A DNA stretch of 23,560 nucleotides, taken from positions 1 to 23,560 of IMG/VR virus record IMGVR_UViG_3300035199_000503; one strand, 5' to 3'. Below are positions 3 to 23,560 of this stretch, one piece after another. The notes below the pieces were generated by a model. It was not told the DNA's origin. It saw nothing but the letters and a program-made list of their open reading frames with translations, and made no database searches. The translations under genes were made by a program, and so were the position numbers. Every line of letters starts with the position of its first letter. Position 1 is the stretch's first letter. This stretch comes from a virus.

Positions 3-461
3 AATAAAAACGGCGATCCAAACTTCTTTGTGAGTCGCGTTTACAAAGGAACGTGGGCAAAATATAAAAATCCAAACGTAAGTAAGGACATTATTTTCAA
101 TGAGCTTTACCTTGACTTCAAGCAGCATATTGTGCTTGTCGAAGGTGTGTTCGATGCCATTATCGCAGGAGAGAATGCGGTTCCTATTTTGGGGTCAACC
201 CTCAGAGAGAGCAGCAAACTCTTCCAAAGTATCGTTGACAATGATACCGCAGTCTACTTCGCTCTTGATCCAGATGCGGACGCAAAGGCTTATAAAATAA
301 TGCAAAAGCTGTTGCAATACGATGTAGATGTTTATAAAGTGGACATCACCGGCTTTGCCGACGTTGGCGAAATGACAATGGGACAGTTTATAGAGAGAAA
401 ACAACAAGCCCGGTGGGTCAACCCCGATAGCCTCTTGGCTATGCAAGTTGCTTGTATTTAG
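3..461 (+). CDS. DNA primase, C-terminal part with TOPRIM domain (5' truncated by window)
   Basis: The reading frame is open to the window edge, so this is the tail of a longer gene; a GTG at position 30 is only an internal codon candidate. The visible part carries a TOPRIM fold: a strand ending in LVEGVFDAI supplies the catalytic Glu-Gly, and FALDPDADAKAY supplies the Asp-x-Asp metal-binding motif. This is the pattern of DnaG-type primases, which make RNA primers at the replication fork; in T4 that role belongs to gp61. The upstream zinc-binding and RNA-polymerase domains lie outside the window. The stop overlaps the region leading into the recombination nuclease gene, suggesting one replication/recombination operon. 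Another TOPRIM enzyme cannot be excluded without the N-terminus. Confidence 0.78.
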   Translation, partial: NKNGDPNFFVSRVYKGTWAKYKNPNVSKDIIFNELYLDFKQHIVLVEGVFDAIIAGENAVPILGSTLRESSKLFQSIVDNDTAVYFALDPDADAKAYKIMQKLLQYDVDVYKVDITGFADVGEMTMGQFIERKQQARWVNPDSLLAMQVACI

Positions 462-469
462 GAGATAAC

Positions 470-3400
470 TTGAGAGTAGTTCATATTAGCGATACACATA
501 TTAGAAACTTAAAGTACCACAAGGAATACCGAGTGGTGTTTGCACAAATGTATGATAAAATCCGTCAGCAACAGCCTGACGCTATTGTACATTGTGGCGA
601 CTTGGCTCACACGAAGGTCAATCTCTCACCAGAGTATTTCGACCTTGCCACAGATTTTATGAAGAATTTGGCGGACATTGCTCCGCTTATTGTGATTCCC
701 GGTAACCACGATGGTAATCTTCGCAACTCGTCAAGGCAAGACGCTATCACCCCTCTGGTGGTCGCTTTGGACCACCCGAACATCACTCTCTTGAAAAACT
801 CAGGAGAACACAAGTTTAACGATAGGGTGACGTTCAATGTACTTTCGGTGTTTGACACAGACAACTGGATCAAGCCGAGTGATCCAAATAAAATTAATAT
901 TGCCCTGTATCACGGTTCCATTTCGGGGTGCGAGACTTCCCTTGGTTGGGTGATGGAACACGGTGAAAACGATGTGTCCATCTTTGAAGGCTTTGATTTT
1001 GCAATGCTTGGCGACATACATAAATCGAATCAAATCCTTGACAACGACGGCAAAGTGAGGTATTGTGGGTCAACAGTTCAGCAAGGTTTTGCCGAGGAAA
1101 GAGACAAGGGGTATCTTCTTTGGAACATTCGCTCCAAGGAGGATTTTGATGTAGAACTCCACACCTTTGGAAACCCAAAACCGTTTATTACAGTCGAACT
1201 TACAAAAAAAGGGAAGGTGCCTAAAAAGACCAAAGTTCCCAAGGGCGCAAGGGTTCGTTTGGTAGCCAACAACAAGCTTCCGATGGAAGTCATTAGAAAG
1301 GCTTCAGACGTGGCTAGGACTCGCTACAAGCCCGACAGCCTTGTCTTCTTGAACAAGGGTGGGGTGACGTTATCTTCGGTCAATACAGGCGACGTGACAG
1401 AGCAAAATCTTAGAGATGTTCAAGTACAACAGGAACTTATCCGCAAGTATCTAAAGGATTACAACCCAAGTGAAGATTTGCTCACTGAGGTGTTTTCTCT
1501 TAATGAAAGATTTAATCGCACAGCAGAACAGGACGAGGAAGTTGCTCGCAATGTGAACTGGTCTCTCAAAGAGTTGGAGTGGGACAACTTGTTCTGTTAT
1601 GGCAAGAACAATAAAATAAATTTTGAAAATATTCGTGGTCTGGTCGGTATTTTTGGCAAGAACTTCTCAGGCAAGTCGTCTATTGTTGATTCGCTATTAT
1701 ACACTCTTTTCAACTCTACGTCAAAGAATGTTCGCAAAAATGTGGATATTGTAAACGACGGCAAACAAAAAGGAAGAGGAAAAGTAAAGATTCAAGTTGG
1801 AACAAAACTTTACACCGTCGAGCGAACAAGCGAAAAATATGAAAAGAAGCTTCATGGTCAAGTGACTACCGAGGCTCGCACCGATGTGAAGTTTTCGGTT
1901 CTAGATGTGGCAACCGGAGACAAAGAGGTTTTGGACGACACCGATCGAAACAAAACTGACGCCACCATTCGCCACACCTTCGGCGCGTTGGAAGATTTTT
2001 TATTGACATCAATGTCGTCACAGTTGGGAGCATTATCTTTTATTAGTGAGGGTTCTACCAAACGCAAAGAGATTCTGGCTAAGTTTTTGGATTTAGAGTT
2101 CTTTGACAAGAAGTTCAAGCTGGCTAAAACTGAAAGCGCTGACACGAAAGGCTATTTGCGTAAACTGGAAAGTTTTGATTTGTCCAAGGACGAAGAAGAG
2201 ATAAAAAATGCCTTAGAAACAGCCATTGCCGATATTGCACAACAAGACAAGACGTGTCATGATTATGAAAAGACGCAACAATCGCTAGTCGAACAGCTTG
2301 CGGACGTGACCGTAAAGATTGAGTCTGTCCCGGCAATCATTATTGATCCTCAAGCCGTAGGAAGCCAGATTACCAGCTTTGAAATGCTGTTGGGCGGCAA
2401 CGAGCGTTTAATAGAGCGACACACTGAGAAGATCAATGAGACTCTTGATTTTATAGCCAAGGGCAAAGAACTGTTGACCACTTTTGATGAAGAGAAGCTT
2501 CTGAAGGACAAAGAAGATCGCACAAAACTAAAGGTCGAGTTGAGTTCTGTGTTGGCTGAAAACACAGGCTACAACCGCGATTTAGCTTATCTACAGAAAG
2601 AGGTAAAGGTTCTGGATCAGATTCCTTGTGGGGATAAGTTCAAAGACTCATGCCCCTTTATCTCGTCTGCTTTCTCGGCGAAAGAGGTGATTCCAGCTAC
2701 GAAGCTGGCTTTGGCTAAAAACCAAACAGAAGAAGCCGCACTGGTTGAGTTTATTAAAGAAAACACGGCAGAAGAAACTTTAGCTAAAATGGAGGCATTA
2801 AAGACTAAGTTGTTGGAGAATGAACACACAGTTTCGGCGTTGCGTTTACAAATTGCAAAAGAAAGACAACAACAGCTTCAAGTGTCGGACACCATCTCCA
2901 AACTGCGGAACAAATTGGACTACTTTGAGGAAAATCGCGAGTCGATCCTTAATGCTGCCGATCTGTATAAGCAAAAGAAAACTATCGCGAGACAAATAGA
3001 AACGACAAAGAAGGAACGCCAACGCTGTCAGGACCAGCTTTTAGTGTTGCACAAGCAGGAAGGCTCACTTCAGGCTCGCTTGGACGAGATACAAAATAAA
3101 AGATCTGAGCTTGATAAGACGCGAAAAGAATATTCGGCGTATGAGCTTTTTATGAAATGTATGCACCCCAACGGCATCGCGTTCCAAGTTATTAAAAACA
3201 AGCTGCCGATAATCAACGAAGCCGTTGCCGAAGTGCTGACCAATGTTGTAGATTTCAGCGTTTATTTTGAGGACAACGGAAGAAAGCTGGAGATCTTTTT
3301 GCAGCACAAGGATCAGGAGTCCAGACCGCTGGAGTTGGGTTCTGGTGCCGAAAAAACTTTAGCTGCTATGGCTATTCGTATTGCGCTTCTTAATGTGAGC

Positions 3401-3610
3401 AATATGCCAAAGTCCGATCTCTTTATTTTGGATGAGCCGGGAACCGCTTTGGACGCCAACAACATGGAAGGGTTCACTCGTATCCTCGATATCCTCAAAG
3501 AACATTTCAAGACGACGCTACTAATTACTCACATAGATGGGCTGAAAGATTCGGTACAGAAAGTCATTACAGTTGACAAGTATGATGGATGCGCTCATAT
3601 AAATCAGTGA
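470..3610 (+). CDS. Fused SbcD/Mre11-SbcC/Rad50 recombination nuclease (gp47-gp46 fusion)
   Basis: One uninterrupted 1046-residue protein combines two normally separate subunits. Residues 1-350 are an Mre11/SbcD metallophosphoesterase: D8-T-H10, G-D44, G-N79-H80-D, H148 and G-D-x-H184. From about 370 comes the Rad50/SbcC ATPase: Walker A GIFGKNFSGKS (393-403), a long coiled coil, signature LELGSGAEK (954-962), Walker B DLFILDEP (983-990) and H-loop H1021. The complex processes DNA ends for recombination-dependent replication. At the coiled-coil apex the usual CxxC zinc hook is replaced by C720-x7-C728. I chose the TTG at 470 because AGGAG sits just before it and translation then begins directly with the first catalytic strand; a TTG at 452 would add six residues. 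In T4 the two subunits are separate genes. Confidence 0.93.
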   Translation: MRVVHISDTHIRNLKYHKEYRVVFAQMYDKIRQQQPDAIVHCGDLAHTKVNLSPEYFDLATDFMKNLADIAPLIVIPGNHDGNLRNSSRQDAITPLVVALDHPNITLLKNSGEHKFNDRVTFNVLSVFDTDNWIKPSDPNKINIALYHGSISGCETSLGWVMEHGENDVSIFEGFDFAMLGDIHKSNQILDNDGKVRYCGSTVQQGFAEERDKGYLLWNIRSKEDFDVELHTFGNPKPFITVELTKKGKVPKKTKVPKGARVRLVANNKLPMEVIRKASDVARTRYKPDSLVFLNKGGVTLSSVNTGDVTEQNLRDVQVQQELIRKYLKDYNPSEDLLTEVFSLNERFNRTAEQDEEVARNVNWSLKELEWDNLFCYGKNNKINFENIRGLVGIFGKNFSGKSSIVDSLLYTLFNSTSKNVRKNVDIVNDGKQKGRGKVKIQVGTKLYTVERTSEKYEKKLHGQVTTEARTDVKFSVLDVATGDKEVLDDTDRNKTDATIRHTFGALEDFLLTSMSSQLGALSFISEGSTKRKEILAKFLDLEFFDKKFKLAKTESADTKGYLRKLESFDLSKDEEEIKNALETAIADIAQQDKTCHDYEKTQQSLVEQLADVTVKIESVPAIIIDPQAVGSQITSFEMLLGGNERLIERHTEKINETLDFIAKGKELLTTFDEEKLLKDKEDRTKLKVELSSVLAENTGYNRDLAYLQKEVKVLDQIPCGDKFKDSCPFISSAFSAKEVIPATKLALAKNQTEEAALVEFIKENTAEETLAKMEALKTKLLENEHTVSALRLQIAKERQQQLQVSDTISKLRNKLDYFEENRESILNAADLYKQKKTIARQIETTKKERQRCQDQLLVLHKQEGSLQARLDEIQNKRSELDKTRKEYSAYELFMKCMHPNGIAFQVIKNKLPIINEAVAEVLTNVVDFSVYFEDNGRKLEIFLQHKDQESRPLELGSGAEKTLAAMAIRIALLNVSNMPKSDLFILDEPGTALDANNMEGFTRILDILKEHFKTTLLITHIDGLKDSVQKVITVDKYDGCAHINQ

Positions 3611-3833: not shown

Positions 3834-4138
3834 TGTCTTGGTTGCTCGTAAAACATTGGACGCTTAAAACGTGGGTTGGCACAAAAACTTATTGGTGTGC
3901 AGGGGTGTGGTTGATGGCAAACTATTTTCTTTATAAGTTTTTTCTCTACAAAAAAGAAGAAGATGAAACGTTTGCCCAGACTGTCGAGAAGAAACTAAAA
4001 GTCGGCAACGAAGAAATAAAAGTTTTAGAGCAACGTCATCACAAAGAGTTACAGAAGTTGTGTCCCGTTCCTCGTCAAGACGAATCAACTCATTGGTTGA
4101 TTAGCCGGGACAAGCAAGCACCGGAGTTGAAAGAATAA
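3833..4138 (+). CDS. Small membrane-anchored coiled-coil protein (i-spanin-like candidate)
   Basis: The start is placed at the ATG of the TGATG junction, behind AAAGGAGA, giving 101 residues; the frame is open further upstream but would overlap the previous gene extensively. An N-terminal membrane segment (20-39) is followed by a charged helix (about 40-76) containing EEIK at 60-63 and then a polar tail. The architecture resembles inner-membrane spanins but is generic. The same plan, with EEIK at almost the same distance from the membrane segment, recurs in the gene at 5008, so the two may be diverged copies. The stop overlaps the next start by one base. Confidence 0.65.
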   Translation: MSWLLVKHWTLKTWVGTKTYWCAGVWLMANYFLYKFFLYKKEEDETFAQTVEKKLKVGNEEIKVLEQRHHKELQKLCPVPRQDESTHWLISRDKQAPELKE

Positions 4139-18811: not shown

Positions 18812-21646
18812 ATGTCAGTAAAAAAGTTCAAATTTGTATCTCCCGGCGTTTTTATCAACGAGATTGATAATTCCCAACTACCCAGTTCCCCACAGCCTGA
18901 AGGTCCAACCGTTCTTGGACGTTCGTTAAGAGGACCAGCGATGCGACCTGTTCAGGTTGAATCTTTGGAAGAGTTGGTTGAAGTGTTTGGACCACCAATT
19001 GCTGGTATTGAAAACGTTGACGCCTTTAGAGAGCCTGCCTTTGGTGCAGCAACATATGGTATGTATGCCGCCGAGGCGTGGTTGCGGAATAGTTCTACTA
19101 TTAACTTTGTTCGCTTGTTGGGAATGGAACACCCTAACAAAACTACCGACAGTGGCGAAGCTGGTTGGAGATTAGCTCCTTTTAACAGCAGCACGGGTGG
19201 CGGCGCATGGGGCGTCTGGGTCTTTGCAACTGGCTCAAGCGCACTTGGCGGTCAGCCGACAGGCACTCTCGGTGCAATTATTTATTGCGATTCTAATACA
19301 TATGTTGAGGCAACGGGCACGATGGCTGTAGCTACCGGTGCCTCCTTAAATGTATCTGCGGCAGACACCCTTGTCGATTGTACCAATAATGAGTTTACAT
19401 TAAAAATTGTGGGCTCTTCTACAGTTACTTCTGTTTGTAATTTTGACAGAACGTCAAGAAAATATATTCGCACCGTTCTTAACACGAATCCAACGAAGAC
19501 AACGACTGCTATTACACCCTCCGCTAATCAAACAGAGTATTTTGTTGGTGAAACATATGACCGCTCTATTGAAGATGTCCTTGCTGGCACAAGCAATATT
19601 AAGTATGTGATGGTTGCACCCCTTGATGCAGGCAGTGCCGGTGACCAAGCCGATATGCGGCGGGCTTTGATTAACGGTCAATCAGGCTGGGTTATTTCAC
19701 AGGATAAGTCAGCGACGAATACCGATTTTTCCCCAGAAAATAACACTAGAGTTACAAAACTTTTCCGATTTGTTGGCATGGAAACAGGCGAATATGATCA
19801 GAGTGCTGTGAAGATTTCTATTGAAAACATTCTTCCTTCCAAGAATCCTAATGATTTTGGAACATTCAATGTGATTGTCCGTCGAATAGAGGACAATGAT
19901 GCGAAGATCAGGGAGGTCGAGAGATTCAATTCTGTTAACCTTAATCCCAATTCTCCTAACTACATCGCAAGAGCTATTGGAGATAGAAACATTTCTTGGG
20001 ACAACGACGCAAGAGTTTGGAAAGAGTACGGTCAATATACAAACCAATCCCGATACGTTCGTATGGAGATGGCGCAAGTTGTCGATGACGGTGGCGTTTC
20101 TAATACACTTTTGCCATATGGCTTTTATGGTCCGCTACAGTATGCCAACCAGACAATTACTTCTGGCTCCGCAACTTCTTATCCAGCAGGCTCTGCAATG
20201 CTGGCAGGCACTTCGTCTATAGTGGCAGCAGCCCGACCAGCAGCCAGTGTCGCAGGAATCGCCTGCGGCGATTTTATCACTGGTCATGCCCCCAAGATGC
20301 TTTTTAAGTTCCCCAAGCTGCCGATGCGCTCGACCACAGCCGTTGGTGATGTGAGTAGCCCACAAGCAGCCTTCTTTGGAATGTCAACGACGCGCTCTAC
20401 TGGATCGTTCACTTATGATGACTCGATTCCTTCATTCCTTCGCACGAAGCCAGCAGGAATTAGTTCGTTTTCCACATCGGCTACGACAGTCTATTCAGAG
20501 ATTTTTACTCTGGACAACTTGGTAACGGGTGATGCTGGCAATATGGTCTATACTAGTGGTTCACGCGCAAGCGGCGCTTCTTTAACAGCCACAAGCGGCA
20601 GTTATGCCGTCTTGACGAGTAGCCTTGCCCCGAGGGGCTTTACGCTGCCGATCTTTGGCGGCTTTGACGGATTAGATATCACTGAAAAAGATCCGTTTGC
20701 CCAGCGAAATACCAACGGAGAGACACAACGAACAAGTTCACCATATTACTCTCTCACCGTGGCAATGGATTCTATTAAAGACAGAGAGGTGATGCTCACT
20801 AATGCTATTACTGCTCCCGGCATTACAACTACAAGTCTGACAGACAAGATGCTTGATATCGCGGCGGATCGAGCCGATTGTATCGCTCTCATCGATATTC
20901 CCGGTGGTTTTGAGCCATCGTCTGAAAATTCTAATGCCCTGTCTGCACGAATAGGTACTGTGCAGGCGACTGTGAACAATCTAAATGCTCGCAATATCAA
21001 TTCAAGTTATGGCTGTGCATATTACCCTTGGGTTCAGATTGCCGATTCGTTTGGTGATGCGAATGTGTGGGTGCCCCCTACTGTTGTGGCACTGGGTTCA
21101 TTCTCTTACACCGATCAGGTGTCAGCACCTTGGTTCGCCCCGGCAGGATTTACTAGGGGTGGGTTATCACGCGGTGCTGGTGGAGTTAACGTTGTCGGAG
21201 TTACTGACCGTCTGCGTTCAAAAGATCGCGACGATCTTTATGAGGCTAATATCAACCCAATTGGAACATTTCCGAACGAAGGAATAGTTATATTGGGACA
21301 AAAGACTCTGCAAGTTACGCGGTCTGCTCTTGATAGAATTAATGTGCGACGTTTGTTACTATACACAAAGAGACACATCACTGCTGTCGCAAATGATTTT
21401 CTCTTTGAGCAAAATGTAAGTGAAACATGGAATAAGTTTTTGGGGTTAGCCGAGCCTATTCTCAATGACATCACAGCACGGTTTGGTTTAGAAGAATACA
21501 AGATGATTTTAGATGAAACCACAACAACGCCCGAAATGCGAGATAGAAACATTCTTTACGCAAAGGTGTTTTTGAAGCCAGCAAAATCAATTGAATTTAT
21601 TGCTCTGGATTTTGTGATTACTAACTCGGCAGCAGTATTCGAATAA
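18812..21646 (+). CDS. gp18: Contractile tail sheath protein (gp18-like)
   Basis: The 944-residue protein is the contractile sheath subunit. The N-terminus SPGVFINEIDNSQ and the following GPTVLGRSLRGPAMRPVQVE are typical of gp18. The C-terminal core includes EANINPIGTFPNEGIVILGQ, VRRLLLYTKRHITAVANDF, FGLEEYKMILDETTTTPEMRD and KSIEFIALDFVIT, which pack around the tube. It is far longer than T4 gp18 (659). The extra length lies in Gly/Ser/Thr-rich insertions, roughly residues 120-260 and 440-610, likely surface domains. It is followed 18 bases later by the tube gene, the usual partner. A CTAGGAG SD and an ACTATTTA motif precede it. Confidence 0.95.
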   Translation: MSVKKFKFVSPGVFINEIDNSQLPSSPQPEGPTVLGRSLRGPAMRPVQVESLEELVEVFGPPIAGIENVDAFREPAFGAATYGMYAAEAWLRNSSTINFVRLLGMEHPNKTTDSGEAGWRLAPFNSSTGGGAWGVWVFATGSSALGGQPTGTLGAIIYCDSNTYVEATGTMAVATGASLNVSAADTLVDCTNNEFTLKIVGSSTVTSVCNFDRTSRKYIRTVLNTNPTKTTTAITPSANQTEYFVGETYDRSIEDVLAGTSNIKYVMVAPLDAGSAGDQADMRRALINGQSGWVISQDKSATNTDFSPENNTRVTKLFRFVGMETGEYDQSAVKISIENILPSKNPNDFGTFNVIVRRIEDNDAKIREVERFNSVNLNPNSPNYIARAIGDRNISWDNDARVWKEYGQYTNQSRYVRMEMAQVVDDGGVSNTLLPYGFYGPLQYANQTITSGSATSYPAGSAMLAGTSSIVAAARPAASVAGIACGDFITGHAPKMLFKFPKLPMRSTTAVGDVSSPQAAFFGMSTTRSTGSFTYDDSIPSFLRTKPAGISSFSTSATTVYSEIFTLDNLVTGDAGNMVYTSGSRASGASLTATSGSYAVLTSSLAPRGFTLPIFGGFDGLDITEKDPFAQRNTNGETQRTSSPYYSLTVAMDSIKDREVMLTNAITAPGITTTSLTDKMLDIAADRADCIALIDIPGGFEPSSENSNALSARIGTVQATVNNLNARNINSSYGCAYYPWVQIADSFGDANVWVPPTVVALGSFSYTDQVSAPWFAPAGFTRGGLSRGAGGVNVVGVTDRLRSKDRDDLYEANINPIGTFPNEGIVILGQKTLQVTRSALDRINVRRLLLYTKRHITAVANDFLFEQNVSETWNKFLGLAEPILNDITARFGLEEYKMILDETTTTPEMRDRNILYAKVFLKPAKSIEFIALDFVITNSAAVFE

Positions 21647-21664: not shown

Positions 21665-22162
21665 ATGACCTTCTGGACATCAGCAGAACTAGAACCAAAG
21701 AAAAGCTATCAATATTATGTTAGTTTTAGTGCAATCGCCGACCCATTTTTAATCAAGGGGGTTACGTTGCCATCTTTTGAGCTAGGAACAATAGAAGCGG
21801 ATTATACACAGTATAAGTTCAATTACCCCGGCAAAATGTCGTGGTCGCCTGTGGAATTTACCATTTATGATGTTGTCGGCGATCAATCGACCGCTAAGAA
21901 ATTGATGAAACTATTAAAAGCTGCTGGCGCAGAACAACCCACAAAATCCACAGACAGAACCACCCTATCAAAGCAGAAAATTTCACAAGCTGTCGGAGAT
22001 ATTAAGATTGTACAAGTGGATACTGCTGGCAACCAGATCGGTACTTGGACATTGAAAAGTCCCTTTATCACCGCTGCCAATTTCGGTACACAGGGATACT
22101 CTGACGAGAGTCTTATTGAAGTAACTTGCACGGTGACATATGATTGGGCAGATTACTCGTAG
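21665..22162 (+). CDS. gp19: Tail tube protein (gp19-like)
   Basis: The 165-residue protein matches T4 gp19 (163) in length and layout: an opening FWTSAELEPKKSYQYYVSF, the strand VTLPSFELGTIEADYTQYKF, then YPGKMSWSPVEFTIYDVVGD and a terminal strand ESLIEVTCTVTYDWADY. It polymerises into the inner tube through which DNA passes and is surrounded by the sheath. AAGGAGA precedes the start. The order sheath-tube is as in T4. Confidence 0.93.
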   Translation: MTFWTSAELEPKKSYQYYVSFSAIADPFLIKGVTLPSFELGTIEADYTQYKFNYPGKMSWSPVEFTIYDVVGDQSTAKKLMKLLKAAGAEQPTKSTDRTTLSKQKISQAVGDIKIVQVDTAGNQIGTWTLKSPFITAANFGTQGYSDESLIEVTCTVTYDWADYS

Positions 22163-22216: not shown

Positions 22217-23068
22217 ATGAGAAATGAAGAGAGACTAGGTACAAACCCACAACCAACCAACAAATCGCGGAAATCCGCTTCCCCTCCCCACCAACTACAG
22301 AACATACTAAGCTTTCCGACAACTACAGAATTTGTAGATCTGCCCTCAGAGGGTGAGTTTTATCCACCAGATCACCCATTATACGAAAAAAAGCAAATTG
22401 AAATGAAGGTGATGACAACCAAAGAAGAAGACATTCTTTTAAACGCTAATTATATTAAAAACGGGGTTGTTATCGATAAGTTGTTGTCGAGTCTGATAAT
22501 GGACAAATCCATTAAGATAAATGACCTGTTGATTGGCGACAAAAATGCGCTTGTGTTTGCCGCACGTTCGTCGGGCTTGGGGAATATTTATACTGCGAAA
22601 GCAACTTGTGGAGAGTGTGGGGAATCCACTGACACAGAACACGATTTAAGTGAAATGGGTAAAAAAGAACCCAAGGAAGTAGATTGGATCGACAAAACAG
22701 AAAATGGGACTTTTGTCGTTACTTTGCCCAAGTCTGAGTTTAAGGTGGAGTTCAAACTGTTGTTGGGCAAAGAGGAGATCGCAATAGACAATACCATAGC
22801 CAAGCGCAAGAAGCGCAGACTCCCAGTAAATAATTTAATTATACGAATGCAAAAAATAATTGTTTCAATCAACGAAGTGACGGATCATCACCAAATTGTT
22901 TCATGTCTTGAGTCGATGCCAATTATGGATTCTAGGAGAATCCGGCTTGCATACGAGCATGTTCTGCCCGATGTGAACACAAGTTTTAATTATGTGTGCC
23001 CATTCTGTGATGCGGAACAGGAGGTAGGACTGCCCCTGTCGGCAGACTTTTTTTGGGCTAACGAATGA
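22217..23068 (+). CDS. gp26: Gp26-like (T4 baseplate-hub family) protein; likely zero-frame product of a frameshift pair
   Basis: The 283-residue protein has the family pattern of T4 gp26: a disordered basic N-terminus, LPSEGEFYPPDHPLYEKK, the helix TKEEDILLNANYIKNG, GDKNALVFAARSSGLG, and two zinc-type cysteine pairs, C131-x-x-C134 and C261-x-x-C264, with a hydrophobic end at LPLSADFFWANE. T4 gp26 is classed as a baseplate hub protein. The position after the tube gene, where other tailed phages place tail-assembly chaperones, suggests a related role for this family. Seven Ts at 23048-23054 and a TGA stop lie just before a second open frame that looks coding; see the next entry. GAGG precedes the start. 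Confidence 0.84.
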   Translation: MRNEERLGTNPQPTNKSRKSASPPHQLQNILSFPTTTEFVDLPSEGEFYPPDHPLYEKKQIEMKVMTTKEEDILLNANYIKNGVVIDKLLSSLIMDKSIKINDLLIGDKNALVFAARSSGLGNIYTAKATCGECGESTDTEHDLSEMGKKEPKEVDWIDKTENGTFVVTLPKSEFKVEFKLLLGKEEIAIDNTIAKRKKRRLPVNNLIIRMQKIIVSINEVTDHHQIVSCLESMPIMDSRRIRLAYEHVLPDVNTSFNYVCPFCDAEQEVGLPLSADFFWANE

Positions 23069-23243
23069 GTACGGTAAACAAGCTTATGAAATGCTCTTTT
23101 ATTTGGTCTATTATGGAGGAATTAGCTTTATCGAAGCCTATAATTTTCCCATTGCACTTCGACAGTATATGTTCGACCGACTTGTGCAAGAAATAGAAAC
23201 CAAAAATAAAACAGTGCGAAGCGCTCGCAAAGGTTCCCCTTAG
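23055..23243 (+). CDS. Overlapping ORF, probable frameshift extension of the gp26-like protein (tail-assembly-chaperone-like)
   Basis: In the +1 frame relative to the gp26-like gene, an open frame reads NEYGKQAYEMLFYLVYYGGI then SFIEAYNFPIALRQYMFDRL and a basic tail. The hydrophobic helix, GG-I-S, E-A-Y and a Pro before a helix resemble the downstream part of tail-assembly chaperones (the T part of lambda G-GT). The first in-frame ATG (23091) lies inside the apparently conserved part and has no SD, so a separate start is unlikely. A -2 slip on the T7 run, or a +1 slip there or at GAA TGA, would add about 58-63 residues and give a fusion of roughly 341. The shift is inferred. The stop TAG overlaps the terminator loop. 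Confidence 0.66.
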   Translation, partial: GLTNEYGKQAYEMLFYLVYYGGISFIEAYNFPIALRQYMFDRLVQEIETKNKTVRSARKGSP

Positions 23244-23297: not shown

Positions 23298-23560
23298 ATG
23301 GAAGAAAAAACAGTTATTAATTTAAACGAGAAGCGCATTGATGAATCTTGGATGCATCGTTTTGGTGGACAAGTACAATATATGCTTTCCCAAATGGGTC
23401 TTGGTGGATCAATGGGAGGCTCTAATATGAGCATTCGTGGTCTGCCTTCTCAGATTCAAGCTTTTGCTGGCGCACTTATGGGTGAACGAGCGCACATGGC
23501 AGCGGCAACCCGCTATGGCTTGACCGATCCTAAAACCTATTCAAGTCGCATGAAACTCGA
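23298..23560 (+). CDS. Start of a phage protein of unknown function (3' truncated by window)
   Basis: The first 87 codons are present: MEEKTVINLNEKRIDESWMH, a Met/Gly-rich segment (GLGGSMGGSNMSIRG), then a helical part with LPSQIQAFAGALMGERAHMA and YGLTDPKTYSSRMKL, running off the end. The strong SD GAGGAGGT and the open frame to the end support a real gene. No named family is recognised. Being the first gene of a new transcript next to the tail cluster, it could be a minor virion protein made in quantity. Confidence 0.8.
   Translation, partial: MEEKTVINLNEKRIDESWMHRFGGQVQYMLSQMGLGGSMGGSNMSIRGLPSQIQAFAGALMGERAHMAAATRYGLTDPKTYSSRMKL

Follow-up and report, generated by a model that had tools for sequence, protein, structure and literature searches.

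A probable programmed +1 frameshift at UUU_UGG in a gp26-like tail assembly chaperone gene of a virus and its relatives

G-T frameshifting is described as widely conserved "except T4", and in lambda G binds the tape measure and T the tail subunit (Atkins 2016, PMC5009743). In T4, gp26 and gp51 are listed as hub assembly chaperones, the function of gp51 being called unknown (Leiman 2010, PMC3004832); in cyanophages gp51 has about 20% of its normal length, and it is absent in Aeh1 (Sullivan 2010, PMC3037559). As cited in PMC12846349, Vladimirov 2022 (Virology 566:9-15) reports T4-like TAC-N genes with -1 poly-T sites, and a -1 site in the same kind of gene is mentioned for the Vandenendeviridae phage Adele. 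On this second-hand account, by which T4-like chaperones, some with -1 poly-T sites, appear to be already published, the -1 sites below and the assignment of gp26 and gp51 count here as prior work. Shifts of +1 in tail chaperone genes are known elsewhere, in the archaeal virus HSTV-2, so a missing -1 heptamer is no bar to membership of the chaperone-pair class. Few bacterial +1 sites are independent of a stop codon. At the +1 site of the RF2 gene prfB, UUU belongs to the group of codons next in slipperiness (PRFect, PMC10885494).

The window, a stretch of 23,560 nucleotides of viral DNA, ends within a tail module that carries the following features.

18812 to 21646, plus strand: tail sheath gene (phrog_23, E 1.5e-64; PF04984)
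21665 to 22162, plus strand: tail tube gene, immediately 5' of the gp26-like gene (phrog_4542, E 1.2e-16)
22217 to 23068, plus strand: gp26-like gene, short product of 283 residues (PF12322, E 3.3e-13)
22217 to 23243, plus strand: predicted frameshift fusion of 341 residues, TAC-NC or gpGT-like (translation with one +1 step)
23048 to 23057, plus strand: putative +1 slip site TTT TTT TGG G (conserved motif, synonymous peak, slip-codon usage)
23055 to 23243, plus strand: +1-frame extension, 62 residues followed by TAG (extension profile across relatives)
23066 to 23068, plus strand: TGA that ends the short product in the 0 frame (from the sequence; its location varies among relatives)
23298 to 23558, plus strand: start of a small ORF that continues past the window end (tblastn, 34% to L008:3554-3796 and 32% to L011)

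The gp26-like core scored 50.3 bits against PF12322 (cut-off 24.5), which places it in that family, and its residues 39-280 aligned with positions 16-233 of the 282 of phrog_150, a baseplate hub family (E 1.9e-14). Zinc-ribbon cysteines are present in the short product, and its assignment as a putative chaperone core, TAC-N or gpG-like, is supported. The gene follows the tube gene directly. The initial annotation had asked whether the tape-measure gene lies just downstream: this is so in Immutovirus and Listeria phage LIS04, where it is annotated after the chaperone gene, and in the relative L008, where a long tape-measure-like ORF starts at 3865 after one small ORF. The window ends before the tape measure, which lies beyond its end, and we counted the gene as flanked by tube and tape-measure genes. 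The small ORF 3' of the chaperone gene is itself conserved, in the window and in L008 at the positions listed above and in L011:3645-3899. The sheath protein is large, with 944 residues, and its Pfam sheath domains are confined to the last third.

At the junction, the 0 frame of the window reads GAC TTT TTT TGG GCT AAC GAA TGA, with the seven Ts noted initially at 23048-23054. The +1 frame has been open since 23028, hence back through the T-run as claimed, and meets no stop until TAG at 23241-23243; its translation is TFFGLTNEYGKQAYEMLFYLVYYGGISFIEAYNFPIALRQYMFDRLVQEIETK... In agreement with the initial annotation, the -1 frame stops nearly at once (TAA, 23059-23061) and a single +1 slip yields a fusion of 341 residues. 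The predicted junction peptide is ADFFGLTNEYGK for a +1 slip and ADFFFGLTNEYGK for a -2 slip; the corresponding prediction for Flavobacterium phage vB_FspM_immuto is GVSFLGLTPEYR. We also confirmed that the extension has no well-placed start: the +1 frame holds no ATG, GTG or TTG before 23091 and no good Shine-Dalgarno sequence, and the first candidate, at 23091, sits within the first predicted helix of the extension.

Relatives were collected with tblastn using the core, which gave nine phage records, and with two IMG/VR scans, which gave about 160 loci; a first viral scan with the window protein alone as query returned no match. At 165 loci, all six reading frames in the region of the core stop were searched with a profile of the extension, built from only four sequences. 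The profile scored best in +1 at 151 of them and in -1 at 14, and at none in frame with the core or antisense, these loci being mutually related and their counts therefore not independent. Clustering at 90% identity left 116 +1 clusters and 11 -1 clusters. In a held-out second collection of genome contigs, all 16 readable loci, two of which share one contig, carried the extension in +1. Among individual records, the extension follows the core directly in +1 in Immutovirus, Mel-JY01, LR756508, Streptococcus phage GXN1 and Listeria phage LIS04, and in -1 in LR756511; Rhodothermus phage RM378 has TTT TTT TGG and an open +1 frame. Homologous shifted-frame extensions thus occur in nearly all relatives examined, far above chance, which bears out the claim that the +1 frame is coding. 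A short product combined with a conserved, frame-shifted C-terminal extension is the arrangement of a chaperone pair.

The junction alignment and the synonymous-site analysis proposed at the outset both point to the slip site. The 0-frame consensus across the 116 +1 clusters (clustered at 90% identity) is TTY-TTT-TGG-CCT. By codons, 94 clusters have TTT-TTT-TGG, seven TTT-TTT-TAC, six TTC-TTT-TGG and six TTT-CTT-TGG, with one case each of TTT-CTA-TTC, TTC-TTT-CGT and TTT-TTT-AGT. A YUU_U core like that of prfB is therefore present: the second codon is TTT or CTT in 115 of the 116 clusters, and nearly all have T next. More precisely, the slip codon is TTT in 109, CTT in six, CTA in one and TTC in none, while phenylalanine elsewhere in the same genes is encoded by 854 TTT and 255 TTC (109:0 versus 854:255, p 4e-13, uncorrected for kinship). 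As the third base of this codon is not part of any new +1 codon, and the +1 product is independent of it, the preference for TTT points to re-pairing on UUU. Synonymous conservation falls short of expectation on the upstream side (ratios 0.7-0.9), is raised only at codons -1 to +5 (1.3-2.3), and goes back to about 1 deeper in the extension; conservation of the +1 frame starts at the slip. Seven Ts are found in most +1 members, with four in those carrying TTC TTT TGG and three in those carrying TTT CTT TGG.

We found no strong stimulator near the slip, whether a Shine-Dalgarno sequence or a downstream RNA structure. No Shine-Dalgarno sequence lies at the short spacing used in prfB, the anti-Shine-Dalgarno profile being weak within 12 nt of the site, and downstream RNA structure is modestly enriched (mean z -1.3, about 31% below -2). 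A Shine-Dalgarno-like AGGAGG recurs at about -31 in the window (23018-23024) and in relatives, at constant position and with a mean duplex energy of -4.8. As a stimulator we rejected it, since about 30 nt is too distant for a known one; it probably reflects acidic codons.

Very probably the gene encodes a tail assembly chaperone and contains a programmed +1 slip site, UUU_U(GG), from which the 341-residue fusion would arise; conservation, genome position and homology support this reading. Of the three routes into the extension named in the initial annotation, the best fit is a +1 slip on UUU_U, at the second TTT. The GAA TGA route lacks support because the stop sits 2, 3, 5 or 6 codons past TGG in different relatives, with TTT TGG CCT constant; the same variation places the 0-frame stop outside the slip element. 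A -2 ribosomal slip on the T-run would enter the same frame with one extra phenylalanine (ADFFFGL instead of ADFFGL), and the seven Ts of the window would indeed let UUU re-pair two bases back. It is incompatible, however, with the six +1 clusters that have TTC TTT TGG, where UUU would have to pair on UCU, and with L003 (TTT CTA TTC), where the pairing would be on ACU, whereas +1 re-pairing fits practically every site; we regard a -2 slip as most unlikely. Transcriptional slippage, in which RNA polymerase would lose or gain Ts along the run and generate mixed mRNA, is suggested by the seven-T run of most +1 members. Yet members with runs of four or three Ts retain the frame and the YUU_U core, and the -1 clades carry ribosomal heptamers, so this explanation is very unlikely.

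Independent synthesis of the extension, from a start codon of its own or through reinitiation past the gp26-like stop, also appears highly improbable. It might draw on the ATG at 23091, on Pseudomonas phage Cygsa01, whose extension ORF overlaps at TAATG, and on the gp51 label that databases give to such ORFs in cyanophages. Against it, 54 of the 127 clusters have no start codon before extension residue 12 and a Shine-Dalgarno-like start is found in only 11; conservation of the +1 frame already begins at the slip, and the TTT-only rule would be left unexplained. Faulty assembly or sequencing might conceivably break up a continuous gene in a single IMG/VR contig with a homopolymer. The same break recurs in 151 related loci, in the isolates Immutovirus, Mel-JY01 and RM378, and in the 16 genome-contig loci, and in no close relative do core and extension share one frame at the site; therefore an error can be dismissed almost entirely. 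The favored reading remains a programmed +1 slip, the direction of which we strongly infer.

According to the mechanism we propose, the majority of ribosomes would terminate at TGA 23066 and release the 283-residue core. A minority would stall at an A-site UGG, presumably because this codon is decoded slowly, with UUU (23051-23053) occupying the P site, and peptidyl-tRNAPhe would move one base forward, from UUU to UUU (23052-23054). Reading would then resume in +1 with GGG CTA ACG and so on, and the resulting fusion of 341 residues would end in a domain of three helices; at CUU sites tRNALeu would slip, and GGC or GGG would be read next. Slip efficiency is presumed on the same footing. By analogy with lambda gpG/gpGT, the short form would outnumber the long one, the tape-measure protein would be coated by the core, and the C-terminal domain of the long form would bring in tail-tube subunits; these roles are suggested by the lambda analogy and by T4 genetics.

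As in lambda, short and frameshift-extended products would come from one gene near the tube and tape-measure genes, and the extension is C-terminal, a likeness in arrangement; lambda uses -1, whereas the window would use +1 at UUU_UGG. Like prfB with its CUU_UGA, the site has a YUU_U core, and CUU is the second commonest slip codon here. In contrast to prfB, the A-site codon is the sense codon UGG rather than a stop, and the window lacks a Shine-Dalgarno sequence about 3 nt upstream. The -1 poly-T TAC-N genes are the same kind of gene with the same outcome, but the window group shifts +1 at UUU_UGG and has no heptamer for the right frame.

A canonical -1 heptamer X_XXY_YYZ, absent from the window, is present elsewhere in the superfamily. 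In the L014 clade, ten clusters have the extension in -1, all ten with A_AAU_UUC, and nine have TTC before TGG; the -1 heptamer has thus replaced the +1 site. In L005 the extension is in -1 with U_UUU_UUC. On a quick tree of 144 cores, which has long branches, the L014 clade is nested among +1 members, and the frame label changes three times, two of the changes being forced by well-supported branches. All 81 Kyanoviridae-like loci, phiAS5 included, are in -1 with U_UUU_UUY (TTT TTC, in one case TTT TTT). The extension is also in -1 at U_UUU_UUY in KVP40-like phages, Aeh1, Cronobacter phage S13, Vibrio phage phi-Grn1, Synechococcus phage S-SSM7, Pelagibacter phage HTVC008M and Stenotrophomonas phage YB07, at U_UUU_UUG in Rhizobium phage RL2RES, and at U_UUU_UUU in the jumbo phages XacN1 and RAS14. 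The U_UUU_UUY sites of Kyanoviridae, Aeh1, S13, phi-Grn1 and others are probably what Vladimirov 2022 reports, to judge from the citing paper. Salmonella phage Vi01 (Ackermannviridae, L263:1590-1800) has a -1 extension and no canonical heptamer; like Cygsa01 with its TAATG overlap, it arrives at this domain by another route.

T4 gp26 and gp51 both match PF12322. The gp51 family aligned over positions 7-199 with the cyanophage core (hhalign, 97.1%, E 5e-11) and over 199-251 with the cyanophage extension (hhalign, 97.4%, E 1.2e-11). The cyanophage core and extension aligned in turn with those of the window family (97.4% for the core; hhalign, 93.8%, E 1.7e-7 for the extension). A direct HMM comparison of T4 gp51 with the window-family extension was not significant, so the homology between them is drawn via the cyanophage extension. 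On PHROG 150, which has 282 positions, the match to gp26 ends at 235 and that to gp51 at 280. According to these profile comparisons, gp51 of T4 would consist of core plus extension and gp26 of the core alone, a short and long chaperone pair like lambda G/GT, and the extension of the window would correspond to TAC-C or gpT, matching the C-terminus of T4 gp51 and the cyanophage "gp51". T4 differs in using two separate genes, so that frameshifting is not needed: gene 26 ends in ..EFFELL with gene 25 immediately next, and gene 51 lies apart. The initial doubt about frameshifting as a trait of the T4 gp26 family is answered in part, by the -1 poly-T sites that the second-hand account places in T4-like chaperone genes and by the -1 or +1 sites seen in most gp26 lineages examined, T4 being the two-gene exception. 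The short gp51 of cyanophages and vibriophages is this same domain; annotated there as a stand-alone gene, it is read here as a -1 extension of gp26, also in Aeh1.

We lean modestly toward a broader reading, in which a large, mostly uncultured clade of the T4 superfamily makes its long tail chaperone through an undescribed +1 element, YUU_UGG(C), that relies on a slowly decoded sense codon in place of a stop. Shifts would have changed direction within the family, and the separate genes 26 and 51 of T4 would represent a resolved final state. Under that reading, the passage of a nested clade to -1 via A_AAU_UUC would mean that the fusion, not the direction, is under selection. A single account of "except T4", of cyanophage gp51 at about 20% of its length and of the gp51 missing from Aeh1 is supported, and it offers a reading of T4 gp26 and gp51. 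The conserved +1 UUU_UGG class and the switching between +1 and -1 look new; we found no report of the +1 class in the open-access literature, where absence is no proof. The +1 sites provide more than 100 diverged natural versions of one minimal motif, among them the variants CUU, UAC and CGU, together with a natural case of its loss, marked by the arrival of TTC and a change of frame.

It follows that many annotated phage genomes have, at the extension, either a separate gene of doubtful standing or no annotation. Public labels are inconsistent (L265:1572-1763, L262:1653-1790, L260:1678-1843, L261:1630-1792): the records of S-SSM7 and HTVC008M list the extension as gp51 and give it an improbable start, and in Aeh1 and Cronobacter phage S13 it is unannotated. 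The overlapping ORF of Cygsa01 lies at L172:2730-2982.

An AlphaFold2 model of the core has a mixed alpha/beta fold (pLDDT 91.7), and the model of the extension consists of three helices (pLDDT 87.5). Foldseek returned nothing below E 1 for the core; 2ob9, the tail assembly chaperone of HK97, ranked fourth (E 2.1, probability 0.33) and was not used. For the extension, Foldseek gave no hits, VIA-align an uninformative best Z of 2.9, and Pfam and PHROG scans of the window sequence no family. Among 66 extension members, weak matches were to DUF6760, PHROG 634 and a tail assembly chaperone PHROG. DUF6760, a Pfam family to which no function is assigned, matched 18 of the 66 (best E 1e-5) and perhaps represents a wider domain family of tail-like systems.

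Outside the tail module, positions 452-3610 of the window hold one ORF of 1052 residues with a calcineurin-like phosphoesterase domain (residues 7-168) and an AAA/SMC ATPase domain (372-1043). It combines Mre11/gp47 and Rad50/gp46, separate genes in T4, in a single polypeptide.
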